Shown in pieces: positions 19,815 through 41,800 of a stretch of 64,000 nucleotides of DNA (its first letter is position 1; each line of letters starts with the position of its first letter). The stretch spans positions 1 through 64,000 of the forward strand of contig JANXVZ010000026.1 of assembly GCA_025351405.1 (NCBI GenBank), given 5' to 3'. This DNA is from Sphingomonadales bacterium. Its GTDB lineage: Bacteria; Pseudomonadota; Alphaproteobacteria; Sphingomonadales; Sphingomonadaceae. The notes below the pieces were generated by a model that searched no databases, was not told where the DNA came from, and was given only the letters and a program-made list of their open reading frames with translations. A program made the translations under genes and the position numbers.

Positions 19815-20002
19815 GATGTCGAACTCTTGGTACGCAGTCACGACCATCGTGACCTGAGGGTCAAAAAGCCCTCGCCAAAGTGATGTTCCACTCCCGCCAA
19901 AATGCCGCATATCGGCAGCGAAAGGATCAGGCGCTGCTTGCGGTTGCACGACCGGCCTGCCCATGCTGTTGTATCCGGGATCGCTATTGCCAGAGAGAAG
20001 AC

Positions 20003-21343
20003 ATGCTCCATTCGCCTTCGACCGAACAGGCTCCCAACGACCTTGACGCGTTCTGGATGCCGTTCACGGACAATCGCTATTTCAAGGCCAATCCGCGCCT
20101 GCTCGCTTCGGCGAAGGGCATGTTCTATGCGACGCCCGAGGGCCGCCAGGTGCTCGATGGCACTGCCGGGCTGTGGTGCGTCAATGCCGGCCATGGCCGC
20201 GAAACGATTGTCGAAGCCATCCGCGAGCAGGCCGGCCGGCTCGATTTCGCGCCGACCTTCCAGCTTGGCCACCCGCTGGCGTTCACGCTGGCGGCGCGCC
20301 TTGGCGGCATCATGCCGTCCGATCTCGATCGCATCTTCTTTGCCAATTCGGGTTCGGAGGCGGTGGATACCGCGCTCAAGATCGCGCTGGCCTATCATCG
20401 CGTGCGTGGCCAGGGCAGCCGTACCCGGCTCATCGGGCGCGAACGCGGTTATCACGGCACCGGTTTCGGCGGCATTTCGGTCGGCGGCATCGTCACCAAC
20501 CGGCGGGTGTTCGGACCCGGCCTGCCGGGCAGCGACCACCTTCCGCACACCCATGACCATGCCCGCAACGCCTTTTCGCGCGGCCAGCCCGAGCATGGCG
20601 CGCACCTCGCCGATGCACTGGAGGGCCTTGTCAACCTGCACGGCGCCGATACCATCGCCGCTGTCATCGTCGAGCCGATGGCGGGGTCGACCGGCGTGCT
20701 GGTACCGCCCAAGGGCTATCTCGAACGCCTGCGCGAAATCTGCACCCGCCACGGCATTCTGCTGATCTTCGATGAAGTCATTACCGGTTTCGGCCGTGTC
20801 GGTGCCGCCACCGCTGCCGAACGCCTGGGCGTCACGCCGGACATGATCACGCTTGCCAAGGGTATCACCAACGCCGCGGTGCCGATGGGTGCCGTCGCCT
20901 GCCGCCGTGAGATCTATGACACCGTTACCGGCGCGATGGCCGATGCGGCGGGGATCGAGCTTTTTCACGGCTACACCTAGTCCGGCCACCCGCTCGCCTG
21001 CGCTGCCGCGCTGGCAACGCTCGATCTTTATCGCGACGAGGCGCTGTTCGAGCGGTCGCGAAGCCTTGAAACGCAATGGGAGGCCGCCGTCCACGGTCTT
21101 GCCGGGCATCGCCATGTCATCGACATTCGCAACATGGGGCTGGTGGCGGGGATCGAGCTTGCGCCGCGCGCCGGCGCGCCGGGGGCGCGTGCGCAGGAAC
21201 TGTTCCGCAGGTTGTTCGATGCCGGCTTCCTGGTGCGCGCCACCGCCGATATCATCGCCCTGTCGCCGCCGCTGATCATCGACGAGGAGCAGATTGCGAC
21301 GCTGGTCGATGCTGTTGCGGCGTCGCTGGCGATGGTGGAATAA
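20003..21343 (+). pseudogene. Class III omega-amino acid:pyruvate transaminase broken by one amber codon
   Basis: A fold-type I PLP aminotransferase of the beta-alanine/omega-amino acid:pyruvate group. The frame is open for 446 codons except for TAG at 20978-20980, codon 326, in HGYT*SGHPLACAAALATL, where the family has Tyr (GYTYSGHP). TAC or TAT to TAG is a single-base change. Upstream features are intact: VLDGTAGLWCVNAGHGR, FFANSGSEAVDTALKIA, FDEVITGFGRVG and the PLP Lys286 in LAKGITNAAVP. The 3' part is also undamaged to the normal C-terminus. The truncated 325-residue product lacks the C-terminal domain. Either a very recent nonsense mutation, a sequencing error or amber suppression explains it. 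Confidence 0.85.
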
Positions 21344-23712: not shown

Positions 23713-26253
23713 CTAGAATTTGAACCCGGCTTCCACGCCGATGATGCGGCGTCCGCCCGGCGAAATGAACGACCCGCCGAACTCGATCGCCGGGATGACT
23801 TCGTTGAGATACTTGCGATCGAACAAATTGTTGGCAAATCCGGTCAACGACCAGGTGTCACCCTCCAGCCCGACGCGCAGATTGGCGACGGCGAACGCCT
23901 TGCGCTGGGTCACGACATAGTTGGCATTGCCGACGAACGCTGGCAGCGCCAGTGCCGAGATTGGCAAGAGGCCGGAAAAGATCGTCGGTGCGGACTGGTC
24001 CTGGACCGAATGGAACCAGGTCGGTCCGGTGATGCGGTAATCGGCGCGGATGGTACCGCGGATGGCATCGGTAATCGGCACCACGACCTGGGTGCCGAGG
24101 TTGATGGTGTAGTCGGCGGTGTAAGGTGATTTGTTGCCCACGGTGCCGGGACGCGACGCGTTCTTCTTGATCTTGCTGTCGGTGATGTTGCCCGATCCGA
24201 ACACGGTCCAGCCATCGACGATGCGGGCGTTGACGTTCAGCTCGCCACCCCAGAGATCGACGCGATCGATGTTGGAAACGACCCGCAACAGCCCGAAACC
24301 GCCGACGAAAAACTCGAAGAACTGCATGTCGCGGACTTCGGTGTAATAGCCGGCGAGGTCAAAGCTGACGCGCTTGTCGAACAGCGATCCCTTGATGCCG
24401 GCTTCGAAGGCGCTCGAACGCTCCTTGCGATACTGGTCGTTGATGGTCACGCCGGCATTGATCGTACCGGGCGTAACGCCATCGTTGAAGGCGGTGTCGA
24501 CGGTGGCCTTGGAGCCCTGGTTGTTGAAGCCGCCGGATTTGAAGCCGACGCCCCAGTTGGCATATAGCACGGCGGATTCGGCCGCCTTGTAGCTGAGCGT
24601 CAATTTGGGTTCGAGCTGCTTGAAGGTGGCATTCTTGTCCGGGATGGCCCCGAGCGTCTGGCCGGGGTTGATCGGCCCGCCGGTGATCGGGTCGATCGCC
24701 ACCGGCACCGCGTTGTGGTCCTTGCGCGCTTCGATGTCATAGCGCAGCGCCAGGCCGGCGCTGAAACCGTTGTCGGCCTTGTAGTCGACCGCGCCGAAGC
24801 CGGCATAGACGTTGGTGGTGAAGCGATCGGCGAGCAACAGCGATGTCGGGTTGCTGCTGGACGGGCCATTGTAAAGGTCGGGCGAGACGCCCTGGCCAAG
24901 GTCGGCGCCCAGGCTGACGCCGGTGTCCCGCTTGATGTTGAGATAATAGGCGCCGAGCTGCCAGGTCAATGGCCCGCCATTGTTCGATGCCAGGCGGACT
25001 TCAGTCGAAAAGTCCTTCTGGTTGCGGACCTGGAGCTGCGTGCCATCGCACGTCGTCGGTGAATAGGCGCCGAAGGTCGAGCCATTCGCCGGCGCGAAGA
25101 TGAACGGCACCGGCGTTGCACCGATGAAGGTCGGTGCGTTGAGCGGGTAGCCGGTCAGCGCCGCCGTCGTGGCGAAACATTTGGCGGAGGCAGCCTGGGA
25201 CGCGGCACTGGCACCGGGGAAGGTGTAGCGCGCGAAATCGGCCGATGTGCCATCGGCGGTCAGGCTTTGCTTGACGTCGCTGTAGAGCGCCCAGGCGCTG
25301 AGCTTCACACCGTCGAAGTCATGATCGAGCTTTGCCGAAAACTCGACCGTGCGCTGGTCGTTGGTAGGGCGGATGTTCGAATAATAGCGGAAGTTGTGGT
25401 CGTTGACGTTTTCATAGAACGCCGGGTTGACGGCGGCGAAGTTCGGCAGCGCAAAGGCGGCGTTGAAATTGATCGATGCGCCCGACAGCTTTTCATACCG
25501 CGCCTTGACGTCGAGAGTGGTCTTGTCGTCGATATGCGCAAAGATGCGGCCATCGATACTGCCGGATTGCTGATCATCGACAACGTGCGCGTTGAGGAAC
25601 TCGTTGCGGTAGAAACCGTCGGTGGTGCGATAATTGCCCGATAGCACGAAGCCGATGGTCGGCGTTATCGGCCCCGCGACATAGCCGGAAACTTCGCCGG
25701 TCTTGTGCTCGCCATAGCTGGCCTTGATGGCGCCTTCGAGGCGGTCGCCCGGCTTCACCGTGCTGACGACAATGGCACCTGCGGCGGCGTTGCGGCCGTA
25801 CAGTGCGCCTTGCGGACCCTTGAGCACCTCGATCTGGCGCAGCGAGCCCTGGTTCTGGTTCAACTGTGCCGTACTGGTCTTGAGGATGCCATCGACGACC
25901 AGCGCCACCGAGCTTTCCGCGTCGCGGGCGCCATTGATGCCGCGGATGTTGATCTGGGTGTCGCCAGCCTCGGCGGTGCCGGTGACGATGGTGACGCCGG
26001 GGGTGAGCTGCAGGAAGTCCTGGGCGCGCGTCACGCCGGTCCGCGCCAGCGTTTCCGACGTCAGCACCGTCACCGATGCCGGTACGTCGATCAATCGTTC
26101 GGTCTGCCGGCGTGCCGTGACGAGAATTTCGCCTTCGCCGGCGTCGGCGGCAGCGGTCGACGAAGCAGCCGCGGTTTGCGCCCGGGTCGGCGCCGCGATC
26201 CCGGCAGCCAGCGCCGCAACACCGACAACGCCCAGCAGATCGATCGTGCGCAT
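23713..26253 (-). CDS. TonB-dependent receptor of the GntR-regulated cluster
   Basis: An 846-residue outer-membrane TonB-dependent receptor. It has a signal peptide (ending APTRAQ), a TonB-box-like GEGEILVTARRQTERLID, a plug (LQLTPGVTIVTGTAEAGDTQ, INIRGINGARDAESSVALVVDG, VLKGPQGALYGRNAAAGAI) and a barrel ending in GRRIIGVEAGFKF with the C-terminal Phe needed for outer-membrane insertion. The palindrome TTGTATACAA lies 58 bases before its start and recurs in front of the catabolic operon beyond the GntR gene. I infer that it imports the substrate of that pathway. It is not preceded by a Fur-like box, so iron uptake is less likely. Confidence 0.9.
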   Translation of the reverse strand: MRTIDLLGVVGVAALAAGIAAPTRAQTAAASSTAAADAGEGEILVTARRQTERLIDVPASVTVLTSETLARTGVTRAQDFLQLTPGVTIVTGTAEAGDTQINIRGINGARDAESSVALVVDGILKTSTAQLNQNQGSLRQIEVLKGPQGALYGRNAAAGAIVVSTVKPGDRLEGAIKASYGEHKTGEVSGYVAGPITPTIGFVLSGNYRTTDGFYRNEFLNAHVVDDQQSGSIDGRIFAHIDDKTTLDVKARYEKLSGASINFNAAFALPNFAAVNPAFYENVNDHNFRYYSNIRPTNDQRTVEFSAKLDHDFDGVKLSAWALYSDVKQSLTADGTSADFARYTFPGASAASQAASAKCFATTAALTGYPLNAPTFIGATPVPFIFAPANGSTFGAYSPTTCDGTQLQVRNQKDFSTEVRLASNNGGPLTWQLGAYYLNIKRDTGVSLGADLGQGVSPDLYNGPSSSNPTSLLLADRFTTNVYAGFGAVDYKADNGFSAGLALRYDIEARKDHNAVPVAIDPITGGPINPGQTLGAIPDKNATFKQLEPKLTLSYKAAESAVLYANWGVGFKSGGFNNQGSKATVDTAFNDGVTPGTINAGVTINDQYRKERSSAFEAGIKGSLFDKRVSFDLAGYYTEVRDMQFFEFFVGGFGLLRVVSNIDRVDLWGGELNVNARIVDGWTVFGSGNITDSKIKKNASRPGTVGNKSPYTADYTINLGTQVVVPITDAIRGTIRADYRITGPTWFHSVQDQSAPTIFSGLLPISALALPAFVGNANYVVTQRKAFAVANLRVGLEGDTWSLTGFANNLFDRKYLNEVIPAIEFGGSFISPGGRRIIGVEAGFKF

Positions 26254-26310
26254 ATTAACCCCCGAAGATTTCCCCGCCGCAATTCCCTGCGGCCCTGATG
26301 GCTGAAACTA

Positions 26311-26320
26311 TTGTATACAA
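26311..26320. promoter_or_regulatory. GntR-type operator TTGTATACAA (receptor promoter)
   Basis: The perfect 10-bp palindrome TTGTATACAA lies in the 292-base divergent gap between the TonB receptor (start 26253) and the GntR gene (start 26546). It has the TnGTnnnACnA-like form bound by FadR-subfamily GntR regulators. The same core is at 28008-28017. The rest of this gap shows nothing else convincing. Confidence 0.7.
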
Positions 26321-26545
26321 ATATGGGTGGTCAAGCCTTCCAACGCCGCTGCAATGCGTTTAGGTCCGGAGGTGAAACCTTTGTGCAACAGCTTGACGGC
26401 GCATTGTTGCGGCATGCCGGCGACTTGGAGACGGCATGGCGATTGCGACGACGGCATCATCTTGTATCGCGGCCGCTGACACGCGACAGCATCGGCCGAT
26501 CGGAAAACGCTCCGGGTTGAGCGACTTGGGAGAGAGGCGACAATC

Positions 26546-27193
26546 ATGTCAAAGGCTGCCGATCACGCCTACGCCGAGATACGCAGCCTGATCCTTTCGG
26601 GCGATGCGCCCCCCGGCGCGCCGCTGACGGAGGAGGCGCTCGCCGACATTTGCGGCGTTTCGCGCACGCCGGTTCGGGAGGCGCTGCGCCGGCTGGAATC
26701 GGAACTGTATGTCGTGCGATCGGATTCGCAGCGGCTGTTCGTCGCCGACTGGAGCCGTGACGACCTGGCCGAAATGTTTACCCTGCGCGCCATGCTGGAA
26801 GCCCATGCCGCGGCGCGCGCCGCCGTCCGCATCGATCCGGCCGGCATGGAAGCCATCGCCGCCTGCAATGCCCGCATCGCCTCGGCGGTTGCCGGGCCAA
26901 CGCCCGAAGTCGGTGCCTTCCTTTCGGAAAACCGCCGCTTCCACGAAATCGTCATTGCCGCCGCAGCCTCCCCCCGGCTCGCATCGATGCTGGCAGCACT
27001 GGTCGAGCAGCCGGTGGTGCGCCGCACGGCCGCCCGCTATGGCAAGGATGAACTCAGCCGGTCGGTCCACGAGCACGGCGAACTCATCAAGGCCTTTGCG
27101 GCGCGCGATCCGGAATGGGCGCGTGCGGTAATGACCGGCCACATTCGCCGGGCATTCCACGCCTTCAGTGCCGCCGCGCCGTTGAGCGTGTGA
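26546..27193 (+). CDS. GntR family regulator, FadR/FCD type
   Basis: A 215-residue transcription regulator. The N-terminal winged helix has AYAEIRSLILSGDAPPGAP and the recognition region LADICGVSRTPVREALRRLE; the C-terminal FCD domain (about 80-205) has the helical pattern with metal-ligand candidates, Asp in SRDDLAEMF, His in ENRRFHEIVI and SVHEHGELIKAF, and GHIRRAFHAF. FCD regulators release DNA when a small acid-type ligand binds. Palindromes TTGTATACAA lie upstream of the divergent TonB receptor and of the HMG-CoA-lyase-like operon, so it probably controls both. No copy lies right at its own start. Confidence 0.92.
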   Translation: MSKAADHAYAEIRSLILSGDAPPGAPLTEEALADICGVSRTPVREALRRLESELYVVRSDSQRLFVADWSRDDLAEMFTLRAMLEAHAAARAAVRIDPAGMEAIAACNARIASAVAGPTPEVGAFLSENRRFHEIVIAAAASPRLASMLAALVEQPVVRRTAARYGKDELSRSVHEHGELIKAFAARDPEWARAVMTGHIRRAFHAFSAAAPLSV

Positions 27194-27214
27194 GGCCGGC
27201 GGCGGCGGCCATCG

Positions 27215-27850
27215 TCAACGTGCGCTCAAATACGCCATCGCTTGCGCTTCGTTGAGCAGCTCTGCCGTCTTGGCGGCAAGGTCGAACAGATTGGCGGCGT
27301 GGACGCCGGCGTCGCGGTCGCCCACGGCATCGGTCACCACCAGCGGGACAAAGCCGTGGCACAGCGCATCGACGGCGCTGGCGCGGACACAGCCCGACGT
27401 CGAAAGGCCGGCGATGACGATCGTATCGATGCCGCGCGCGTGCAAGTCGGCCGCCAGGGCGGTGCCGAAAAACGCACTGGGATAATGTTTGGTGATCACC
27501 TCGTCGCCGGACAGTGGGCTGAGCTCGACGGTGAAATCTCCCAGTGGATTACCGGTCTCGAAACATTTCAAGGCAGCGATCTTGCGGTAGAAAATGCCGC
27601 CTTCGATACCGCCGGGTGAATATTCGACACGCGTGAAAATGACCGGGACGCCGGCAGCGCGGGCGGCGGCATGGAGGCGTGCGGCGCTGGCGCGGGCGCT
27701 TTCGACGCCGGCATACAAGGGTGAGGTGGGTTCGAAATAGGCTCTCGCAAAGTCGATGAGCAGCAGCGCCGGGTGGTTGCCGGGGGCCAAAGTCGCGCCA
27801 AAGCCTGCGCCGGCATAGTCGGCATCACGATCGTCAGCAGGCCTGGTCAC
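27215..27850 (-). CDS. Isochorismatase-family hydrolase, N-carbamoylsarcosine-amidase-like
   Basis: A 211-residue cysteine hydrolase of the isochorismatase superfamily. The triad is visible: Asp in PALLLIDFARAYFEP, Lys in DEVITKHYPSAFFGT and Cys in AGLSTSGCVRASAVDAL, followed by GFVPLVVTDAVGDR. The TSGCVRA...VGDR form is that of N-carbamoylsarcosine amidohydrolase and related amidases, rather than isochorismatase itself. It is divergent from the HMG-CoA-lyase-like gene, with the operator palindrome in the gap. N-carbamoylsarcosine amidases work after HyuAB-type N-methylhydantoinases in creatinine breakdown, and HyuAB-like genes are nearby, so amide or carbamoyl hydrolysis in the same pathway is plausible. 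Confidence 0.88.
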   Translation of the reverse strand: MTRPADDRDADYAGAGFGATLAPGNHPALLLIDFARAYFEPTSPLYAGVESARASAARLHAAARAAGVPVIFTRVEYSPGGIEGGIFYRKIAALKCFETGNPLGDFTVELSPLSGDEVITKHYPSAFFGTALAADLHARGIDTIVIAGLSTSGCVRASAVDALCHGFVPLVVTDAVGDRDAGVHAANLFDLAAKTAELLNEAQAMAYLSAR

Positions 27851-28004
27851 GGGCGGGCTCCAAAGCTGTCGCTGGGTTTCGTCGGTGCAAAGCGAGAAAG
27901 TCGGGCGTTTCGACCGCCGCTTTCGCCGCAGAATGTCCTATATTGGTCGCCCACACGCTTTTCGGCATCATCCCCATGCCGCGACCCTATACAATGCCGA
28001 GGCT

Positions 28005-28020
28005 ATTTTGTATACAAAAT
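28005..28020. promoter_or_regulatory. GntR-type operator ATTTTGTATACAAAAT (operon promoter)
   Basis: A perfect 16-bp palindrome with the core TTGTATACAA, ending two bases before the ATG at 28023. A half-site TATACAA lies at 27989-27995. Its overlap with the translation start suggests either direct blocking of the promoter or a leaderless message. The same core precedes the TonB receptor. Confidence 0.8.
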
Positions 28021-28022
28021 CC

Positions 28023-28988
28023 ATGTTTGATTCCGGCACCATCGAAATCGTCGAGGTCTCCCCCCGGGATGGCTTGCAGAATGAAAAGGGTTATGTCGAG
28101 ACCGCCGACAAGCTGGCGCTGATCGATCGCCTGATCGGCATAGGGGCTCGGCGCATCGAGGTTGCCAGCTTCGTCAATCCGCGCCGGGTGCCGCAGATGG
28201 CCGACGCCGAGGCCGTGGTTGCCGGCCTGCGCGATGTTGCTGGCGTGCGCTACATCGGCCTTTGCCTCAACGAACGCGGCGTCGACCGGGCGATCGCCAG
28301 CCGCGATGGGGGCGCGCGCGGGCTCGATGAAGCCGGCTGCGTCCTTGTCGCCACCGATGGCTTCGGCATCGTCAACCAGGGCCAGACGGTCGCCGACGGC
28401 ATTGCCGCCAACACCGTGATGATCGCCAAGGCCCGGGCAGCGGGGCTGTTCGCGCAGGTCACCATCTCGGCCGCGTTCGGCTGCCCCTATGAAGGGCATG
28501 TCCCGCCCGAACGCATTGTGGAACTCGCCAGCCGAATGGCAGAGGCGGGCGCGCAGGAGATCGCGCTGGCCGACACCATCGGCGTCGCGGTGCCGGCGCA
28601 GGTCGGCGATCTTGTCGCCGCCGTGATGGCGAAGATCGGCGATATCCCGATTCGGCTCCACCTCCACGATACCCGCGGCCTTGCCCCGGCCAATGCCTGG
28701 GCGGGTTACGAAGCCGGCTGCCGGATTTTCGATTCGGCGCTGGGCGGCCTCGGCGGTTGCCCGTTCGCGCCCGGAGCGGCGGGCAATGTCGGCACCGAGG
28801 AGCTGGTCTACCTGTTCGCCCGGTCGGGCATCGTCAGCGGCTATGACCTCGACAAGGCGGTGGAAGCCAACCGCTGGTTCGCCGGCATCATGGGCCGTGA
28901 ATTGCCCAGCCGCGTCGGCAAGGCCGGGGATTTCATCGTCAAGGGGGCCAGGGTGGCCGGGGCAAATGTCGAGGGGGATTTCGGTTGA
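28023..28988 (+). CDS. HMG-CoA-lyase-like aldolase
   Basis: A 321-residue TIM-barrel lyase of the hydroxymethylglutaryl-CoA lyase family, which cleaves 3-hydroxy-3-methyl acyl-CoAs by a retro-aldol step to acetyl-CoA plus a keto product. Catalytic features are present: Arg15 and Asp16 in EVSPRDGLQNE, metal ligands His213 and His215 in LHLHDTRG, and the reactive Cys246 in GLGGCPFAPGAAGN. The ATG at 28023 directly follows the operator; there is no clear ribosome site, so leaderless translation is possible. The stop overlaps the TTG start of the next gene. The true acyl-CoA substrate is unknown, and a leucine-degradation role is unlikely in this context. Confidence 0.9.
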   Translation: MFDSGTIEIVEVSPRDGLQNEKGYVETADKLALIDRLIGIGARRIEVASFVNPRRVPQMADAEAVVAGLRDVAGVRYIGLCLNERGVDRAIASRDGGARGLDEAGCVLVATDGFGIVNQGQTVADGIAANTVMIAKARAAGLFAQVTISAAFGCPYEGHVPPERIVELASRMAEAGAQEIALADTIGVAVPAQVGDLVAAVMAKIGDIPIRLHLHDTRGLAPANAWAGYEAGCRIFDSALGGLGGCPFAPGAAGNVGTEELVYLFARSGIVSGYDLDKAVEANRWFAGIMGRELPSRVGKAGDFIVKGARVAGANVEGDFG

Positions 28989-31021
28989 GCTACAGACTGG
29001 GCGTCGATGTCGGCGGCACATTCACCGACCTGCTGGTCATCGACGAAGCCACCGGCCGGACCTTTCGCGACAAGGTGCCGAGCACCCCGCACGACCCGTC
29101 GGAGGCGGTCATTGCCGGGGCGCGGCAGTTGTGCGGCCGGGCTGGGATCGAACCGCACGAACTGGCGCTGTTCCTCCACGGCACGACGGTCGCCACCAAC
29201 GCCGTCCTCGAACACAAGATCGCCCGGGTCGGGCTGATCACGACGGAGGGTTATCGCCACATATTGCAGATTGCGCGGTCGCTGGTGCCCGGTGGCCTCG
29301 CCGCCTGGATCGTCTGGCCCAAGCCCGAACCGATGGCGCCGCTGGAGGCGACGATCGAGGCGCCGGAGCGCATCGGCGCCGATGGTATCGTCGTGCGGCC
29401 GCTCGACGAAGCCCAGTTGCGGCTGAACCTTAAGCGCCTCGCCGACGAAAAGGTCGAGGCGATCACCGTCTGCCTGATCAACAGCTATATGAACGACGTC
29501 CATGAACGCCGCGTCGCCGAGATCTGCGCCGAGGAACTGCCCGGCATCCCCGTCAGTCTTTCGGCCGATATCCTGCCCGAAATGCAGGAATATGAGCGGG
29601 CGTTGACGACGGTCGCAAACAGCGCGGTGCGGCCGACGGTGTCGCGCTATGTCGGCAATCTCGAGCGCGAACTGGCGGGCTGGGGCACCAACGCCAAGCT
29701 CAGCCTGCTGCGCTCCGACGGCGGGCTGATGTCGGCGGAAAAGAGCCGCAATGCGCCGGTGAACCTGTTGATGTCAGGTCCCGCAGGCGGTGTTGCCGGG
29801 GCGGTGTGGATCGCGAAAAACAGCGGCCACCCCAATGTGCTGACGCTCGATATGGGCGGCACCTCGACCGATGTCGCGCTGATCGAGAATTACCAGGCGC
29901 GGTTGCGGCGCGAGACCAGCGTCGGGCACCTGACCGTCCGCGCCTCGTCGCTCGATGTGAAGACCGTCGGCGCCGGCGGCGGCTCGATCGCCAGCGTGCC
30001 GGAATTGACCAAGGCGCTGCGGGTGGGTCCGCAGTCGGCGGGCGCGGTGCCGGGGCCGGCCGCCTATGGCCGCGGCGGCGTGCTGCCGACCGTTACCGAC
30101 GCCAATGTCGTCCTCGGCTATTTGCCCGAAAATTTGCTCGGCGGCACCTTCAAGCTCGACCGCGAGGCCGCCGAGCGCAGTGTGCAGACGGTCGCCGATG
30201 CGCTCGGGTTGAGCCTGATGGAAGCCGCCGCCGGCATCGTCGCCATCGTCAACGAGACGATGTACGGCGCGCTGCGGCTGGTTTCGATCAGCCAGGGTTA
30301 TGATCCGCGCGATTTCGCCTTGATGGCGTTCGGCGGCGCCGGGCCGCTGCATGGCAATGCGATGGGAATGCTGATGGGGTCGTGGCCGGTCATCATCCCG
30401 CCGTCGCCGGGCGTGCTCTGTGCCTATGGCGATGCGACGACGCGGCTGCGGGTCGATGCCCAGCGCAGCTTCAACAAGCTGGTCACCCACACCGACGACG
30501 GCGAAGTTGCCGCGATCATCGCCGAGCTGGCAGCGCAGGTAACAGCCGAGCTGGAGGCCGAGGGCGTTCCCGCCGCAGACCAGGACCTGCAGTTCGAAAT
30601 CGACGTGCGCTATTCCGGCCAGGCCTTCGAAGTGCCGCTGACGATTGCGCCGGAGGCCGGTATCGCCGACCTGACCGCGCGCTTCGACGCCGAGCACAAA
30701 AGGCTGTTCACCTTCAACCTGTCGGTGCCGCAGGAACTGGTCAACATCCGCGTCGTGGCGCTCGGCAAGGCGGCCAATGTCGAGGCGCAGCGCATCCCCA
30801 GCGGCGACGGCAATCCGATTGCGGCGAAGCTGCGCGATCACGAGGTGTGGATGGACGGGGCCGTGCGGGCCGGGGTGCTCTATGATCGGGCCCTGTTGCG
30901 CGCCGGTGATCGCATTCCAGGGCCGGCGGTGGTCACCGAGATGGATTCGACGACGCTGATTCATCTGGGGCACACGGCGCTGGTCGATGATTTCGGCAAC
31001 TTGCTGATCGAGCCGGCATGA
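28985..31021 (+). CDS. Hydantoinase/oxoprolinase A-type subunit (HyuA-like)
   Basis: A 678-residue ATP-binding subunit of the hydantoinase/oxoprolinase/acetone-carboxylase superfamily. The ASKHA nucleotide-binding fold is seen in GVDVGGTFTDLLVID, LFLHGTTVATNAVLEHK, SLLRSDGGLMSAE, LDMGGTSTDVAL and FGGAGPLHGNAM. The enzymes activate an amide, lactam or ketone carbonyl by phosphorylation. The start is TTG at 28985 (overlapping TTGA), matching the family N-terminus. HyuB follows after 68 bases. Relatives include N-methylhydantoinase, caprolactamase, 5-oxoprolinase and acetone or acetophenone carboxylase; sequence alone does not choose. Confidence 0.92.
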   Translation: MSYRLGVDVGGTFTDLLVIDEATGRTFRDKVPSTPHDPSEAVIAGARQLCGRAGIEPHELALFLHGTTVATNAVLEHKIARVGLITTEGYRHILQIARSLVPGGLAAWIVWPKPEPMAPLEATIEAPERIGADGIVVRPLDEAQLRLNLKRLADEKVEAITVCLINSYMNDVHERRVAEICAEELPGIPVSLSADILPEMQEYERALTTVANSAVRPTVSRYVGNLERELAGWGTNAKLSLLRSDGGLMSAEKSRNAPVNLLMSGPAGGVAGAVWIAKNSGHPNVLTLDMGGTSTDVALIENYQARLRRETSVGHLTVRASSLDVKTVGAGGGSIASVPELTKALRVGPQSAGAVPGPAAYGRGGVLPTVTDANVVLGYLPENLLGGTFKLDREAAERSVQTVADALGLSLMEAAAGIVAIVNETMYGALRLVSISQGYDPRDFALMAFGGAGPLHGNAMGMLMGSWPVIIPPSPGVLCAYGDATTRLRVDAQRSFNKLVTHTDDGEVAAIIAELAAQVTAELEAEGVPAADQDLQFEIDVRYSGQAFEVPLTIAPEAGIADLTARFDAEHKRLFTFNLSVPQELVNIRVVALGKAANVEAQRIPSGDGNPIAAKLRDHEVWMDGAVRAGVLYDRALLRAGDRIPGPAVVTEMDSTTLIHLGHTALVDDFGNLLIEPA

Positions 31022-31089
31022 GCGCGGCAGTCACCTACCTCTCCCGCACGGGGGAGCAAATCCTTCCCGACTATCCGAGGACCTGACCC

Positions 31090-32991
31090 ATGCCCGCCCG
31101 GATCATCGAAACCAACCCGTCGCCCTTTGCTGCAACGAAGATCGACCCCGTCACTCTCGACATCGTCGAGAATGCGCTGCGCAACGCCCGCATCGAGATG
31201 GATGCGACGCTTGTCCGCACCGCCATGTCGCCCGGCATCCGCGAGCAGGGTGACGCCTTTCCGCTTATCGCCGACCCCAAGGGACGGATGATCGTCGGCC
31301 AGTTCGGCAGCTTCATCGACGGCTTCCTGCGCGGCTTCGACGGCACAATCGAGGAGGGCGACATGATCCTGTTGTCCGACCCCTATAGCTGCGAAGGCGC
31401 CATCAGCCATTCGAACGACTGGCTGGTGCTGCTGCCGGTCTATCGCGGCGGGCGGCTGGTGGCCTGGACGGCGATGTTTGGCCACCAGAGCGATATCGGC
31501 GGCAAGGTGGCGGGCTCTATGCCGATCGACGCCCGCGCCATCTTCGAGGAAGGCGTTCGCATCCCGCCGGTCAAGATCTATGCCCGCGGCGAATACAACG
31601 CCGACCTTGTCCGCCTTATCATGCACCAGACGCGCAAGCCCGATTGGTGCGCCGCCGATTTGAACGCGCTGATCGCCGCCTGCCGGGTCGCCGCCCGCCG
31701 CGTCGAGGAAATGTGCGCGCGCTTTGGTGACGATGTCGTCGTCGCGGCGATGGAGGACCTGCTGGCGCGCAACCACCGCGCCATGAAGGCGTTGATCGCC
31801 ACCTCGGTATCGACCGACGCGGTCAGCTTTGAAGATTATATCTGCGACGATGGCGTCGGCTTCGGCCCCTACAAGATCAAGTGCACGATGAGCCGTGTCG
31901 GCGACAAGGTCATCCTCGATTTTGCCGGCACCGACCCGCAGTCCGATGCGTCGATCAACTTTTACCTCAACGAGAACATGTTCAAGATGTTCTTCGGCAT
32001 CTACATGATCATGGTCTTCGATCCGCAGATCATGTTCAACGATGGCTTCTACGACCTCATCGAGGTCAGGATCCCGCAGGGCTCGCTGCTGAAGCCCAAT
32101 TACCCCGCGGCGCTGTCGGGCCGCACCCATGCATTGGGGCGCATCTTCGACATTCTCGGCGGATTGCTGGGGCAGCGCACGCCCGAATTCCTCTGCGCCG
32201 CCGGCTTCTCGTCGTCACCGCATCTGATGTATTCGGGCCGCGACACCCGACCCGGCAAGGGCGGCGAATGGTTCCAGCTCTTCCAGATCGGCTTCGGCGG
32301 TATCCCCGGCAAGCCTTTCGGTGACGGCCCCGATGGTCACTCGTTGTGGCCGGGCTTCACCAACGTCCCCAATGAATTCCTCGAACGCTATTTCCCGCTG
32401 CGGATCGAACGCTATGAAGCGCTGCCGGACACCGGCGGCGCCGGCCTCAACCGCGGCGGCAACGGCATATTGATGAGCTATCGCTTCCTCGCGGCGGGCA
32501 CTGTTTCCATCCACGACGATCGCTGGTTCACCTATCCCTGGGGCGTAAACGGCGGCAACCCGGGGTCGCGGGCGAAGAAGGTGCTCGAAAGGCCCGACGG
32601 CACCCGCACCATCGTCGCCAACAAGCTCGACAGCCTCGCCGTCGAGGCGGACGACGTGCTGCACTTCATCACCTGGGGCGGCGGCGGCTGGGGCGACCCG
32701 CTGCAGCGCGACCCGGCGCTGGTGGGCAAGGAAATCCGGCAGGGGCTGGTCACATCGACCGGTGCCCGGGCCTATGGCGTCGTTGCCGATGCCGAAGGCC
32801 GCGTCGACGCCAATGCCACGATCGCCCTGCGCGCCGAAATGGCGGCGGCGCCAAAGGCCGCCAACGACCTGTTCAACTTCGGCGGCGACATCGAGGAGCT
32901 GCGCGCCAATTGCCTCGCCGAAACCGGGCTGCCGGCGCCCAAGCCGCCTGTCTGGCATGTCGTGGAGCCCCAGGCGGTGGCGGCCGAATGA
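31090..32991 (+). CDS. Hydantoinase/oxoprolinase B-type subunit (HyuB-like)
   Basis: A 633-residue partner of the HyuA-like subunit, carrying the second half of the active site. Family blocks are clear: PVTLDIVENALRNARIEMDA, FGSFIDGFLRGFDG, LLSDPYSCEGAISHSNDWLV, FGHQSDIGGKVAGSMP with the putative metal-binding His and Asp, DFAGTDPQSDASINFY and ITWGGGGWGDPLQRDP at the end. The C-terminal part (RYEALPDTGGAGLNRGGNG) is typical. The ATG is at 31090. The last codons overlap the CoA-transferase start (ATGA). Together the two subunits should hydrolyse or carboxylate the pathway's substrate with ATP. Confidence 0.92.
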   Translation: MPARIIETNPSPFAATKIDPVTLDIVENALRNARIEMDATLVRTAMSPGIREQGDAFPLIADPKGRMIVGQFGSFIDGFLRGFDGTIEEGDMILLSDPYSCEGAISHSNDWLVLLPVYRGGRLVAWTAMFGHQSDIGGKVAGSMPIDARAIFEEGVRIPPVKIYARGEYNADLVRLIMHQTRKPDWCAADLNALIAACRVAARRVEEMCARFGDDVVVAAMEDLLARNHRAMKALIATSVSTDAVSFEDYICDDGVGFGPYKIKCTMSRVGDKVILDFAGTDPQSDASINFYLNENMFKMFFGIYMIMVFDPQIMFNDGFYDLIEVRIPQGSLLKPNYPAALSGRTHALGRIFDILGGLLGQRTPEFLCAAGFSSSPHLMYSGRDTRPGKGGEWFQLFQIGFGGIPGKPFGDGPDGHSLWPGFTNVPNEFLERYFPLRIERYEALPDTGGAGLNRGGNGILMSYRFLAAGTVSIHDDRWFTYPWGVNGGNPGSRAKKVLERPDGTRTIVANKLDSLAVEADDVLHFITWGGGGWGDPLQRDPALVGKEIRQGLVTSTGARAYGVVADAEGRVDANATIALRAEMAAAPKAANDLFNFGGDIEELRANCLAETGLPAPKPPVWHVVEPQAVAAE

Positions 32992-34220
32992 GCGGCGAGC
33001 AAGTGAAGACGCCAGTTGCGAACAAAGGCCCGCTCGCCGGATTGCGGGTCGTTGAAATGGGCCAGCTCATCGCTGGGCCGTTCTGCGGCCAGTTGCTCGG
33101 CGACATGGGCGCCGAAATCATCAAGATCGAGGCACCCGGCCGTGATGGCAAGATGGGCGGCGACCCGATGCGCGTCTGGGGCCGCGGCGATTACCCGCTG
33201 TGGTGGGAAGTCGTGGCGCGCAACAAGCAATCGGTTTCGGCCGACCTGCGCATTCCCGAAGGCCAGGCCCTGGCACGCCGGCTGATCGCCACCGCCGACA
33301 TCCTCATCGAGAATTTCCGCCCCGGCACGCTCGAAAAATGGGGCATGGGGCCCGAGGCGCTGCACGCCGAAAACCCCGGGCTGATCATCGTCCGCGTGTC
33401 GGGCTATGGCCAGACCGGGCCCTATTCGAACCGCGCCGGCTTTGGCGGCATTGGCGAGGCGATGGGCGGCTGGCGCGCCATCGTCGGCGACCCGGACCGG
33501 CCGCCGTCGCGCATGGGCGTCTCGATCGGCGACAGCCTCGCCGCCACCTATGGCTGCATGGGGGCGCTCGCGGCGTTGCGCCATCGCGACCAGACCGGCG
33601 AAGGGCAGGTCGTCGACTCGTCGCTTTACGAAGCCTGTTTGCAGGTGATGGAGAGCCTCGTTCCCGAATATGCGGCGTCGGGCTATGTCCGCGAACGCTC
33701 GGGCTCGTCGCTTCCCGGGATCGCGCCGTCGAACGTCTACCCGACCAGCGACGGCGAATATCTGATTGGTGCCAACCAGGACACCGTCTTCGGCCGACTT
33801 TGCCAGGCGATGGGCCGGCCTGAACTGGCGCAGGACCCGCGCTACGTCGACCATATTTCGCGCGGCCGCCACCAGGTCGAACTCGACGACCTCATCGCCG
33901 CCTGGACGCAGACGCTGACCATCGCCGAATTGGAAGCGCTGATGATCGAGCATGGCGTCCCTGCGGGCAAACTCTACCGCCCGCAGGACATGCTTGACGA
34001 CCCGCACTTCATCGCCCGTGAGGCCATCATCGACGTGCCGCACCCGCGCTGGGGGACGGTCAAGATGCAGAACGTCTTTCCCAAATTGTCGAAAACCCCG
34101 GGCAGCGTCCGCAGCCGCGCGCCGGAAACGGTGGGGGCCGACAATGCCGACGTTTATGGCCGGCTGCTGGGGATGAATGACGCGGAGATTGACGATCTCA
34201 AGCTTCGCGGGGTCATCTGA
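32988..34220 (+). CDS. CaiB/BaiF family CoA-transferase
   Basis: A 410-residue family III CoA-transferase, cytoplasmic, that moves CoA between carboxylic acids through an aspartyl-CoA intermediate. It begins with the family block LAGLRVVEMGQLIAGPFCGQ, LLGDMGAEIIKIEAPGRDG, then ARNKQSVSADLRIPEGQA, ADILIENFRPGTLEKWGMG and the catalytic Asp region MGVSIGDSLAATYGCMGALA. The ATG overlaps the HyuB stop by 4 bases, so translation is coupled. It would activate the acid product for the HMG-CoA-lyase-like aldolase at the start of the operon. The CoA donor and acceptor are unknown. Confidence 0.92.
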   Translation: MSGEQVKTPVANKGPLAGLRVVEMGQLIAGPFCGQLLGDMGAEIIKIEAPGRDGKMGGDPMRVWGRGDYPLWWEVVARNKQSVSADLRIPEGQALARRLIATADILIENFRPGTLEKWGMGPEALHAENPGLIIVRVSGYGQTGPYSNRAGFGGIGEAMGGWRAIVGDPDRPPSRMGVSIGDSLAATYGCMGALAALRHRDQTGEGQVVDSSLYEACLQVMESLVPEYAASGYVRERSGSSLPGIAPSNVYPTSDGEYLIGANQDTVFGRLCQAMGRPELAQDPRYVDHISRGRHQVELDDLIAAWTQTLTIAELEALMIEHGVPAGKLYRPQDMLDDPHFIAREAIIDVPHPRWGTVKMQNVFPKLSKTPGSVRSRAPETVGADNADVYGRLLGMNDAEIDDLKLRGVI

Positions 34221-34356
34221 AAAGCGCAACCAGCGCACGTCCTTCCAAAGCTTCTTGTTGAACAAAATTAACGATCCGGAAATCGAATTGTCGGCGGAAT
34301 TTACAGTTTCGCCGGGTGCTGCCGGTTAACTTGTTGTTTTCCTATGTGTACTTGCT

Positions 34357-34372
34357 TGGCATAGTTATTGCT
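34357..34372 (+). promoter_or_regulatory. Candidate sigma-54 promoter for PEP-CTERM gene
   Basis: TGGCATAGTTATTGCT fits the sigma-54 consensus TGGCACR-N4-TTGCW with one substitution; the GG and GC are separated by the required 10 bases. The start site would be near 34383, leaving about 80 bases of leader before the GTG at 34466. The surrounding 245-base gap is unusually AT-rich for this window. Confidence 0.55.
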
Positions 34373-34465
34373 AATGGGTGGTTAGCCAGTGTGACGTTAC
34401 ACTGTGCGGGGCAGGCGGACCGTGCGGCGTTGACCGGGCTACTCCGCCGTAATGGGAGCAAGACC

Positions 34466-34984
34466 GTGAAAATCAAGACTGCATTGGTTGCCGGCGTCGC
34501 CGCAATCTGCTTCGCGGCTTCGGCGGCGGGCGCTGTTACCTATACGTATGTCGGTTCATGGGCACCGTCGGACGGCCCGGGCTGGACCACCAACCCGCTG
34601 GCCTATTCGGGCGTCGGCGCCGCTGCGATGCTGTTCGGGGGTTCGGCGTCGGACTATGCCATCTCGACGATCGACAATAACGCCGCCAACATCAACTTCA
34701 TGGCGAACTATGAAGTCATCGGTATCGGTTCGGCCGTTTTCGGCGATCATTATTTCCGCGGCATCGAAGGCACGACCCATTACCAGGACGTGTATATCGG
34801 TGACCCGGCGCTCGATACCGTATCGAGCTATGTCAGTGATTTCGGCAACCAGAACGTCAATTACGCCTTCACCATCAGCGGTGTCGGTGCTGTTCCGGAA
34901 GCCGCAACCTGGACGATGCTCATTGCCGGCTTCGGTTTGACCGGAGCCGTCATGCGTCGCCGCCGTGCTGCCCTCGCAGCCTGA
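34466..34984 (+). CDS. PEP-CTERM sorting domain protein (PEPxxWA variant)
   Basis: A 172-residue secreted protein of unknown function. It has a signal peptide (MKIKTALVAGVAAICFAASAAGA), a short central domain rich in aromatic and Gly residues (TYTYVGSWAPSDGPGW; YFRGIEGTTHYQDVYIGDPA), and a C-terminal sorting tail VPEAATWTM, a hydrophobic helix LIAGFGLTGAVM and RRRRA. The Pro-Glu-Ala form departs from the usual Pro-Glu-Pro. The GTG at 34466 follows GGGAGC. The sigma-54-like promoter upstream fits the known control of PEP-CTERM genes by the PrsK/PrsR sigma-54 system in other bacteria. Confidence 0.8.
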   Translation: MKIKTALVAGVAAICFAASAAGAVTYTYVGSWAPSDGPGWTTNPLAYSGVGAAAMLFGGSASDYAISTIDNNAANINFMANYEVIGIGSAVFGDHYFRGIEGTTHYQDVYIGDPALDTVSSYVSDFGNQNVNYAFTISGVGAVPEAATWTMLIAGFGLTGAVMRRRRAALAA

Positions 34985-38838: not shown

Positions 38839-41800
38839 TTACTGGAAGCGGAAGCGGATGCTTGCCGAGTAACGGCGGCCCAGCGCGTCGTAGGTCGACG
38901 GATAGGTGTTGCCGCTGTTGAACGAGGTCGAGCCGATGGTGGCGCCGACGAGCGGCGGTGCACGGTCGAACATGTTCTGCACCGAAACCGTCAGGGTCAG
39001 GTTCTCCATGATGAAGAAACGGCCCGTCAGGTCGAAGTAGTGATAGGCCTTGATGTGACGGAACGCTGGTTCGGTCACGCAGCCATCAGGATCGGTGCCC
39101 GTTGGATCGGTGCAGCCACCGGCGATTGCGGCAGCAAGGTCATCGGCCTGCTGCTGCTTCTCGAAGTTGACTGGGTGGATATAGCGCCACAGCAGCGAAA
39201 CGTCGAAGTTGCTGAACGCCAGGGTCGAACGCTGGCTGAACTCGAACTTCGGCTGGATCGAGCCGCAGTTGACCGAGTAGAAGCCGGTGCACTCGCGATC
39301 GAGCGACGTCGGGGTCGCCTGGAACTTCGAATGGTTCGTCCAGTTGCCGGTGAAGTTCAGGTTGAGCTTCGCGAAGCCGACGTCATGGGCGTAGTTGGCC
39401 GAAACGTCGATACCGTCAGTCTTGAGCGTGCCGAGGTTCGACAGGCCGAGGAACAGACCGGGAGTCGTCGTCGCGTCGCCGTCAAGTCCACCACTTGCCG
39501 GGTTGCGGCGAATGATCAGGCAGGCCGGGTTGGTGGCGGCGCTGGCTGGCGGGTTGGTCGGCGACGAACCAAAGCACGAAGCGATGGCATCGGCAGGCGT
39601 CGGCGTCGTGATCGCGTCCGTGACCTTGATGTTGTAATAATCGACGGTCAGCGAGAACGACGGGATCTGCGACGGGGTCAGGACAGCACCGATGGTGTAG
39701 CTGTTCGACTTTTCCGGCTTGAGGTTGATGTTGCCGCCGCCGGTCGAGTTGGCCTGGCCAGCCGTCGGGTTGCTGATGGTACCGATGGTGAAGGCAGGTG
39801 CACCCTGTGCAAGGCAGACTGCCTTCAAGGTGGGGTTGTTGAGCGGTGCCGCACCCGAGCAAGGATCGGTGCCCAGGTTGGTCAGCGTCGTGTTCACCGG
39901 CGAGAACAGCTCGGCGATGTTCGGTGCGCGGACGGCATGGGCATAGTTACCGCGGATCTTCAGGCCATCGACCGGAACCCAGCTACCACCGACCTTGTAG
40001 GTGTAGGTGTCGTAGGAAGGCTTGGTTGGGGCCTGGACCTTGTAGTGCGAATAACGGCCACCGGCTTCGAGGGTCAGGCTCTGGAAGCCAGGCTTGTCGC
40101 TGACCAGCGGAGCGATCAACTCGCCATAGCCTTCATAGACGCTGTAGCCGCCATCGATGTTGGGGGCTGCACCACCGGAACCGCCCAGATCGCCCGACTG
40201 GGCGAGAAGGTCGGACTGCTGCGAAGCGTGATAGGTGCGATATTCGGCACCGAGCGCGAAGCCGACCGGTTCGGCCGCCGACGGAACGGTGAAGCCAAGG
40301 TCACCCGACAGGGTGGCATGGACCTGGCCGAGCGAAGTGCGGGTCGTCGAGGTGCTGTCGACCGCGAGGAACTTGGCACCGGCTGCCGAAATGCTGCCGG
40401 GAGGGCCAAAGAAGTTGACGGGGACGCAGCCGCCCGTCGGATCCTGGCAGGTGACGCCGTCGTTGGTCAGCAGCGACTGACGAACGCGGTTGTTCGAGGT
40501 GTAGTTCTTCAGCGTCTGGATGTTCTGGCTTTCACCATAGCTGCCCGACAGATCCCAGTTGATGTGCTCGTTGAGCTTGCCGCGCAGGCCGGCCTGATAG
40601 TCGAAGATCTGGGTCTGGAAGTCGCTGATCCGCGGACCAACTTCGGTCGCGCGACGGAAAACCGTCGTGGTGAACTTGCGATAGTTCGGATCGTTCGGGC
40701 CGGTTGCGGCGGCTGCGGCGGCGCACTGCGCCGTCGTCAGCGACTGGATGCCGGCAGTGTTCGGGTCAAAGTCGCTGTTGGCGCAGAAGGTGGCGCGTGC
40801 TGCGGCCGGCAGGAACGGGTTGTTGACGTTGATCGACGCGGGAGCGCCGAAGGAACCCGACGGTGCGATGATGGTCTGCACGACGTTCTTGGAGAACAGG
40901 GCGCGCGAATAGACTTCGATGTTGTCGTTGATCTCGTAACGCGCGGCACCATAGATGTTGTAGCGGGTGAACGGCGTCAGGAAGATGTTGTACGGGTTGA
41001 AGTTGAAGCGCGAGAAGGTCGGGACGAGGGCGCCGGCAGCGTTGATCTGCCGCGTGCCGAGACCGGGGACCGAGAAGCGCGACGGGGTCGCAGTACCCGA
41101 ACCGCCGCCGACAGTGCCGGAATAGGAATCGGTGTTGAGGTTGGAGATGTCGCGGGCGCCCTGATAGACTGCATCGGTCTTCTGGTACCCGATCGACAGG
41201 ACCGCATTGCCCTTGCCGTCATCGAAGTTGGCACCGATGGTGAGATCGGACTTGAAGGCGTTGCCGTCACCCTTTTCGTTGAGGGCTTCACCGACAGTTG
41301 CTTCGACGCCGGCAAAATCCTTCTTGGTGACGAAGTTGACGACGCCGGCGATGGCATCGGCACCATAGGTGGTCGACGAACCACCGGTCAGCACGTCAAC
41401 GCGGTTGACGAGCGCGAGCGGCACGTTGTTGAGATCGAAGCGGCCGTTCAGTTCGGCTGGCGTGATGCGCTGGCCATCGAGAAGGACGACGTTGCGGTTG
41501 GAACCGAGGCCGCGAAGGTTGACGAACGAGGCGCCGCCGTTGCCGTTGTTGACGGCCGAACCGATGCTGGGGACGATACCCGGAATTTCGCGCAGAATCG
41601 CCTCGGCGTTGTTCTGCTGCAAAAGTTCGATGGTGTCGGCGGTCGTCACGTTGACCGGGCTCGAACGCTGGAGGTTCGGGTTGCGGATCAACGAACCGGT
41701 GACGATGATGGTGCCTTCATCGGCGGCGGCATCGGCAGCGGCGACCTTGGCAGGTGCGGCGGCGGGAGCGGCAGCCTGGGCATAACCGGCGACCGGCGAA

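Follow-up and report, generated by a model that had tools for sequence, protein, structure and literature searches.

A palindrome-linked HyuAB, amidase and CoA-dependent lyase gene set conserved in sphingomonads: a candidate pathway for alkyl-substituted cyclic imides

Introduction

The ATP-dependent hydantoinase/lactamase family, which includes CapAB, N-methylhydantoinase and HyuAB of Pseudomonas NS671, comprises enzymes that release N-carbamyl or amino acids, as described in the sections of PMC8453981 consulted. Here we analysed a window of 64,000 nucleotides (positions 1 to 64,000 of contig JANXVZ010000026.1, Sphingomonadales bacterium, assembly GCA_025351405.1), in which HyuA and HyuB genes belong to a set of seven that also encodes a TonB-dependent receptor, a GntR/FCD regulator, an isochorismatase-fold amidase, an HMG-CoA-lyase-family lyase (HMGL) and a CaiB/BaiF family III CoA-transferase. 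The HyuA and HyuB families, ATP motifs and metal ligands are common to this locus and the known enzymes, whereas the partners here include a CoA-transferase and a carbon-chain lyase. We read the set, with about even confidence, as a regulon dedicated to the breakdown of a maleimide-type cyclic imide that carries alkyl substituents.

Other described pathways resemble parts of the set. Aerobic nicotinate degradation converts maleamate to maleate with NicF, an isochorismatase-fold amidase presumably of the same subgroup as the one here; unlike that pathway, the seven-gene set holds no pyridine-ring enzyme, and its acid would go to CoA-dependent cleavage, not to fumarate. The end of nicotinate fermentation (DmdAB and 2,3-dimethylmalate lyase) follows the same hydratase and lyase logic on a 2-alkylmalate that we propose below, but entry here would be through HyuAB and the amidase, and in the bacterial versions an HMGL-type lyase would cleave the CoA-activated acid. 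Citramalate/mesaconate CoA-transferase and citramalyl-CoA lyase, known from itaconate use and the 3-hydroxypropionate cycle (with an HMGL-type lyase in Chloroflexus), likewise combine a family III CaiB protein with a retro-Claisen lyase acting on a malyl-type CoA ester, whereas the present system would start from a nitrogen-containing precursor by ATP-dependent ring opening and has its own TonB receptor and GntR operator. Creatinine and hydantoin breakdown is compatible in amidase subgroup and differs in the remaining partners. The enzyme families are thus each known, and what would be new is the proposed joining of HyuAB-type ring opening to alkylmalate cleavage. A first-pass annotation of this DNA had stated that none of the pathways it considered (creatinine, caprolactam, acetone/acetophenone and leucine) uses the full set, and among the papers listed by searches of the open-access PubMed Central literature (subscription journals outside its scope) none matched such a pathway or described the gene combination.

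Conservation of the gene set and its palindrome

A HyuA scan of species genomes yielded 123 relatives, of which the best 80 were kept, mostly labelled sphingomonads with a few other alphaproteobacteria and including the cultured Sandarakinorhabdus limnophila DSM 17366 (L023) and Erythrobacter sp. NAP1 (L033), and gene calls in these and in the more distant loci were made with a codon score. Fifty-one loci were long, with 9 kb or more of sequence upstream of the HyuA start and as much again counted from that start onwards, and the other 29 were too short for this comparison. The results showed all seven genes in 44 of the 51 long loci, with HMGL and CaiB each present in 50, the receptor and the regulator in 49 and the amidase in 46. 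Gene order and strand differed between the loci, which indicates that the set has been kept together through rearrangement. As a synteny control, three neighbours of the set in the window were compared with the 80 relative loci (the aminotransferase-like frame, the PEP-CTERM protein and another TonB receptor), and none of them had a match. Joint conservation in relatives, named beforehand as a point on which the first-pass annotation would turn, was therefore found.

The palindrome TTGTATACAA occurred in exactly two copies in the 3,024,303-base genome (98% complete), one forming operator 1 and the other, at 28008-28017, lying within the perfect 16-base palindrome of operator 2, which ends 2 bases before the HMGL ATG (Table 1). 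The same pattern reversed but not complemented had no copy in the whole genome, and with at most one mismatch TTGTATACAA was found twice in the window against a mean of 0.11 in shuffles. In a general repeat search of the window the palindrome was not among the longest matches; targeted pattern searches recovered it. The shared palindrome described earlier is thus real and far above chance, and its only two genome copies both lie at the gene set.

The core of the palindrome, TGTATACA, was counted 144 times in the 80 relative loci (1.47 Mb); 143 copies preceded core genes (no more than 600 bases upstream of, or 60 bases inside, the start of the BLAST match) and one lay inside CaiB, compared with 0 to 34 copies for each of ten control 8-base palindromes of equal composition. 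At least one copy was present in 73 of the 80 loci, and the core was absent from the other seven (L013, L021, L026, L039, L040, L053 and L073). In relatives it is conserved before the receptor/regulator and before HMGL. Atu1419, an FCD/VanR-group GntR regulator of Agrobacterium, binds ATGTATACAT according to the sections of PMC7797058 consulted, and the operator core here equals that of this site. The GntR and FCD domains, together with a palindrome of TGTATACA core ahead of putative target genes, place the regulator with the VanR/Atu1419 kind. Because the palindrome is rare in the genome, its core is conserved and it matches the Atu1419 operator, the seven genes are predicted to form a single regulon under a switch of known type. 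The location of both genome palindromes at the set, taken with its conservation in the long loci, supports one dedicated catabolic regulon, in line with the system that had been proposed.

Enzyme assignments

Among solved structures, HyuA scored highest against N-methylhydantoinase (461 bits), followed by 5-oxoprolinase (350), acetophenone carboxylase (286) and acetone carboxylase (242); the corresponding scores of HyuB were 214, 200, 117 and 37 bits. HyuA contains the ATP motifs DVGGTFTD at residue 8, DMGGTSTD at 289 and GAVPGP at 353, in keeping with the two DxGGT..D motifs and the GxxPGP motif that, along with the metal ligands of the family, are described in the consulted part of PMC8453981. 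In HyuB, H107, D110 and H132 align with His150, Asp153 and His175 of acetone carboxylase, and D55 aligns with Asp65 of acetophenone carboxylase, the ligands being those named in that part of the paper and the columns compared by eye. HyuA and HyuB thus carry the ATP motifs and the Asp-His-Asp-His metal site of the ATP-dependent hydantoinase/lactamase family, and these checks support a putatively working ATP-dependent hydrolase.

Two narrower assignments were tried and did not hold. The NCBIfam equivalog models of caprolactamase (CapAB) gave 507 and 206 bits against cut-offs of 1000, and the vicinal Cys-Cys of CapB is absent from HyuB. Membership of the acetone/acetophenone carboxylases is disfavoured since hydrolases outscore them for both subunits and the set holds no further subunit gene, and for the same reasons HyuAB looks, from its sequence, like a hydrolase rather than a carboxylase. 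The first-pass annotation had allowed HyuAB either to open or to carboxylate its substrate; the structure scores favour ring opening and disfavour carboxylation.

The closest solved relatives of the amidase were 3ot4/3uao (136 bits), which we take to be the maleamate amidohydrolase NicF, and N-carbamoylsarcosine amidohydrolase 26st (132 bits). Its D-K-C residues, presumably catalytic in the roles assumed for this fold, appear intact by eye. HMGL reached 291 bits against the curated NF004283 cut-off of 246, and its motifs PRDGLQNE, HLHDT and GGLGGCPFAPGAAGN align with solved HMG-CoA lyases, which places it in the HMG-CoA lyase family, whose name-giving activity is cleavage of HMG-CoA to acetyl-CoA and acetoacetate; we propose that it is a 2-alkylmalyl-CoA (citramalyl-CoA-type) lyase. 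Two PF00682 proteins were found in the genome, HMGL and one LeuA-like protein; as regards leucine degradation, the genome search found no second HMG-CoA-lyase-type gene. For CaiB, the nearest NCBIfam models were succinate-glutarate CoA-transferase (265 bits) and mesaconate CoA-transferase (238 bits), both below their cut-offs, and a succinyl-CoA:2-alkylmalate CoA-transferase is proposed. The TonB receptor is the probable substrate importer. The genome also holds one LeuC-like gene, 60% identical to LeuC of Geobacillus; LeuD had no match in the 4.2 kb around that gene, with no search made further afield.

Distant versions and a probable shared carbon skeleton

HyuA and HyuB recur together with the amidase in Geobacillus, Rubrobacter, Acidiphilium and haloarchaea. 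A HyuB tree of 44 rows separated the window and 37 loci, chosen for spread over Pseudomonadota, Bacillota, Actinomycetota and Halobacteria, from six outgroup loci with support of 95/97; some of its deep branches are long and unsure in placement. Within the 37 clade loci the amidase lay within 12 kb in 30, a carbon-chain lyase in 28 (HMGL in 22) and LeuCD in 10, and hydratase and lyase genes shared one cluster in eight (L119-L121, L144-L147 and L149). The six outgroup HyuAB loci (33-36% identity) had no amidase, carbon-chain lyase or LeuCD in their 7-kb flanks; their neighbours were ABC or MFS transporters, M20 or M81 peptidases and similar genes.

Gene order varies among the distant versions. 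Geobacillus has amidase, HyuA, HyuB, CaiB, HMGL, a transposase, LeuC and LeuD, and Rubrobacter has CaiB, HyuA, HyuB and amidase. In Acidiphilium the order is HMGL, CaiB, HyuA, HyuB and amidase, with LeuC and LeuD about 6 kb off. L145 (same phylum, family f178) holds in one row a PrpR-type regulator, TonB receptor, CaiB, HMGL, HyuA, HyuB, amidase, LeuC and LeuD. A PrpR_N sensor was present in six of the seven sigma-54 regulators beside clade loci. All six haloarchaeal plasmids carry HyuA, HyuB and the amidase; four have an ICL/PEPM-family lyase without CaiB and HMGL, and two have CaiB beside a LeuA/CimA-like enzyme (the one checked by NCBIfam fell below cut-offs). The one of the four ICL/PEPM lyases that was searched (L142) had 2,3-dimethylmalate lyase 3fa3 as its closest solved structure, ahead of petal death protein and methylisocitrate lyase, a likeness to the end of nicotinate fermentation; in NCBIfam its nearest model was methylisocitrate lyase, below cut-off. 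Among the matches listed, plasmid HyuAB proteins were annotated only as hydantoinase/oxoprolinase.

Three chain-cutting arrangements therefore interchange: HMGL with CaiB, a LeuA/CimA-like enzyme with CaiB, and ICL/PEPM alone. The HMGL, LeuA/CimA and ICL/PEPM families make or break 2-alkylmalate-type bonds, so the substrate type that the three can share is a 2-alkylmalate, free or as a CoA ester. LeuCD hydrates alkylmaleates to 2-alkylmalates, and PrpR senses 2-methylcitrate in the known case. Since the LeuCD hydratase, the PrpR-type sensors and the exchangeable lyases converge there, a 2-alkylmalate is the probable intermediate. Because the recurring bacterial and archaeal partners point to one carbon skeleton, the substrate of this HyuAB clade is directly testable.

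Proposed pathway and alternatives

The scheme builds on the genes, families, motifs, palindrome, conserved set and distant partner genes read from sequence, and from these we infer the substrate, all the individual reactions, the involvement of LeuCD and the repression. The TonB receptor would take up an alkyl-substituted cyclic imide, HyuA would activate a ring carbonyl with ATP, and HyuB would hydrolyse the imide to a half-amide (alkylmaleamate), from which the amidase would release ammonia and a cis-dicarboxylic acid (alkylmaleate). A LeuCD-type hydratase, presumably the housekeeping one in this genome, would add water to give a 2-alkylmalate, onto which CaiB would transfer CoA from a donor such as succinyl-CoA, and HMGL would split the CoA ester into an acyl-CoA and a 2-oxo acid. 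Methylmaleimide would thus give acetyl-CoA and pyruvate, and ethylmethylmaleimide or hematinic acid imide would give propionyl-CoA and 2-oxobutyrate or 2-oxoglutarate, respectively. The ring should bear alkyl groups, because unsubstituted maleimide would need no lyase. Acting through TTGTATACAA, the GntR/FCD protein would keep the two transcription units repressed, and binding of the substrate or of an intermediate would lift this repression. This putative order of steps is the only one we found that uses all parts. Import, CoA loading and lyase cleavage survive from the pathway sketched in the first-pass annotation, which had overlooked the hydratase step and left the carbon skeleton unnamed.

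The leading alternative, which we consider unlikely, is a hydantoin or ureide pathway in which HyuAB would open a 5- or N-substituted hydantoin to an N-carbamoyl acid, the amidase would strip the carbamoyl group as in creatinine breakdown, and HMGL and CaiB would process the deaminated acid. This would suit the first rank of N-methylhydantoinase for both HyuA and HyuB and the second rank of N-carbamoylsarcosine amidohydrolase for the amidase, a name that one plasmid annotation also bears, as well as the aminotransferase-like frame of the window (19880-20980), but that frame is the one unmatched in the relative loci, and the conserved set has no transaminase or ammonia-lyase. LeuCD, the PrpR-type sensors and the 2-alkylmalate-type lyases of the distant versions, including the dimethylmalate-lyase-like enzyme, also fit a maleate/malate skeleton and a maleate-type diacid, not an amino acid, which makes a carbamoyl substrate less likely for the amidase than a plain amide. 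The earlier proposal that the amidase removes a carbamoyl or amide group is accordingly narrowed towards probable amide removal.

A lactam or pyrrolinone pathway appears quite unlikely. HyuAB would here open an unsaturated or hydroxylated lactam with a ring of five members, such as a pyrrolone resembling a bilirubin oxidation product. The amidase would act on an amide in a side chain or in the product, and the resulting diacid would pass to the same hydratase, CoA-transferase and lyase. Characterised relatives do include lactamases (PMC8453981, in the sections consulted), the caprolactamase model gave its below-cut-off 507 bits, and FAD monooxygenase, AMDase-like and PuuE-like genes in some loci could feed a ring compound in; a plain lactam, however, leaves an amino acid and not a half-amide, which would make less use of an amidase that recurs in 30 of the 37 clade loci. 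An arrangement of several independent functions under one regulator, instead of one linear pathway, could account for the variable gene order and strand and for single members missing in some loci, but it is very unlikely given that these enzymes remain clustered despite rearrangement and in different phyla, with a dedicated palindrome. Least probable of all is a branched-ketone or isoprenoid route in which a ketone would be carboxylated with ATP, as by the acetone and acetophenone enzymes, before CoA is transferred and HMGL cleaves the product. Although the HyuAB superfamily includes such carboxylases and the lyase passes the HMG-CoA-lyase model cut-off, both subunits are nearer hydrolases, no further carboxylase subunit lies in the set, the amidase is usually linked, and HMGL is missing from four archaeal versions, which have an ICL/PEPM lyase.

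Several observations weigh against catabolism of an alkyl-substituted cyclic imide as we propose it. The two best amidase scores are nearly equal (136 and 132 bits), five of the 51 long loci have no amidase, and L039 lacks HMGL and CaiB; the CoA-transferase and HMGL families accept broad substrate ranges. The LeuCD hydratase is not encoded in the window, and since LeuC was found in one and LeuD in three of the 51 long loci, most members, this genome included, would need a hydratase from elsewhere. Two clade members, L117 and L118, are without any partner gene, and the FAD monooxygenase, AMDase-like and PuuE-like neighbours of other clade loci could mean a wider substrate range. In addition, the proposed scheme gives no role to two SnoaL-like proteins and a racemase-like protein lacking the usual cysteines, which 22 of the 51 long loci contain.

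These neighbours were also recorded in their own right. L117 and L118, on plasmids of Sphingomonas JE1 and Sphingobium TomTYG65, combine HyuAB with a flavoprotein oxidoreductase and a succinate-semialdehyde dehydrogenase and may represent another use of the same enzyme. The FAD monooxygenase and AMDase-like protein lie near clade HyuAB in L073 (16882-21925), L119, L148 and in part L150, joined by a PuuE-like hydrolase and an aldehyde dehydrogenase in L073, L119 and L148; the module is possibly an upstream ring-oxidation route. In L153 (4129-8485), HyuAB and LeuCD have an MmgE/PrpD-family protein and TRAP-transporter-like genes as neighbours, which suggests carboxylate import in that genome. 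An example of the Asp/Glu/hydantoin-racemase-like protein beside the set is found in L028 (3857-5441). Maleate isomerisation by this protein was considered and rejected, as both expected cysteines, at what we take to be the motif positions, are replaced in L028, L061, L024 and L018 (by eye). The window genome has no match to it, though two other PF01177 proteins lie elsewhere in that genome.

Tetrapyrrole-derived maleimides as possible substrates

Natural alkylmaleimides are best known from tetrapyrroles. A more specific reading, possible but rather unlikely, is that the set belongs to a bacterial and archaeal pathway that mineralises monopyrrolic maleimides from oxidised chlorophyll, bacteriochlorophyll, heme and bilins; with the same reserve, methylmaleimide, ethylmethylmaleimide, vinylmethylmaleimide and hematinic acid would be the candidates. 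The tetrapyrrole maleimides bear the 2-alkyl-3-methylmaleate skeleton for which the hydratase and lyase genes call, and hematinic acid would yield exactly propionyl-CoA and 2-oxoglutarate. In the sections of PMC7318184 consulted, methyl-, methylethyl- and methylvinylmaleimide and hematinic acid are named among breakdown products, maleimides and hematinic acid are cited in senescent leaves and lake sediments, and chlorophyll turnover is put at 10^12 kg per year; the leaf analysis reported there detected hematinic acid and not maleimides.

The distribution of HyuB was compared with that of photosynthesis in 199 genomes of the family to which the window genome belongs, taking HyuB at E <= 1e-200 and reaction-centre genes over the Pfam cut-off; matches that fell short of the Pfam cut-off were left out, which removed one genome each from the reaction-centre and MmgE/PrpD counts and two from the creatininase count. 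HyuB was present in 48 genomes, reaction-centre genes in 34 and both in 21. The results revealed HyuB in 21 of the 34 reaction-centre genomes compared with 27 of the 165 without (odds ratio 8.3, Fisher P = 2e-7), and the association held by genus (14/20 vs 20/76, P = 5e-4; genera counted by hand). Against the reaction centre, the control genes gave odds ratios of 2.2 for MmgE/PrpD (P = 0.05) and 1.7 for creatininase (P = 0.43). Pigment turnover would be compatible with this association, but kinship confounds it; related genomes are not independent, so it is suggestive only. The link is also limited by the 27 HyuB genomes of the family without a reaction centre; Geobacillus and haloarchaea are not chlorophyll phototrophs.

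If true, this reading would supply a missing last stage in the tetrapyrrole carbon and nitrogen cycle and would extend the list of enzymes by an imide hydrolase that depends on ATP and an alkylmalyl-CoA lyase of the HMGL type. Should the substrate be a tetrapyrrole-derived maleimide, the set would show by what route microbes complete the degradation of a pigment that ranks among the most abundant on Earth.

Layout of the gene set and neighbouring frames

All seven genes were found where the first-pass annotation had placed them and in the families it had named (Table 1).

Table 1. Genes and operators of the set in the 64,000-nucleotide window
Feature	Position	Strand	Length (amino acids)	Evidence or location
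TonB-dependent outer-membrane receptor	23713..26253	-	846	Pfam Plug and TonB_dep_Rec_b-barrel over cut-off
Operator 1, palindrome TTGTATACAA	26311..26320	.		between receptor and regulator
GntR/FCD regulator	26546..27193	+	215	Pfam GntR and FCD over cut-off
Isochorismatase-fold amidase/hydrolase	27215..27850	-	211	Pfam PF00857 over cut-off
Operator 2, perfect 16-base palindrome ATTTTGTATACAAAAT	28005..28020	.		between divergent amidase and lyase operon
HMG-CoA-lyase-family lyase (HMGL)	28023..28988	+		Pfam HMGL-like and NCBIfam NF004283 over cut-off
HyuA, ATP-dependent hydantoinase/lactamase large subunit	28985..31021	+	678	Pfam Hydant_A_N, Hydantoinase_A and Hydant_A_C over cut-off
HyuB, metal-dependent hydrolytic subunit	31090..32991	+	633	Pfam Hydantoinase_B over cut-off
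CaiB/BaiF family III CoA-transferase	32988..34220	+		Pfam CoA_transf_3 over cut-off

The ATG starts of HMGL and CaiB are probable, taken from sequence reading. HMGL/HyuA and HyuB/CaiB each overlap by 4 bases, and the earlier description of an operon of four overlapping genes stands for these pairs and is slightly overstated as a whole, because HyuA and HyuB are 68 bases apart.

The aminotransferase-like frame lies 2.7 kb past the receptor. A second large TonB-receptor-like frame (38839-41877), with no palindrome nearby, stands downstream of ClpB, and the PEPxxWA-CTERM sorting-domain protein (34316-34984) directly follows the operon. In one relative, L009 (12037-12555), a small AHSA1/polyketide-cyclase-like protein is located between HyuA and HyuB, and other relatives have a gap like that of the window.

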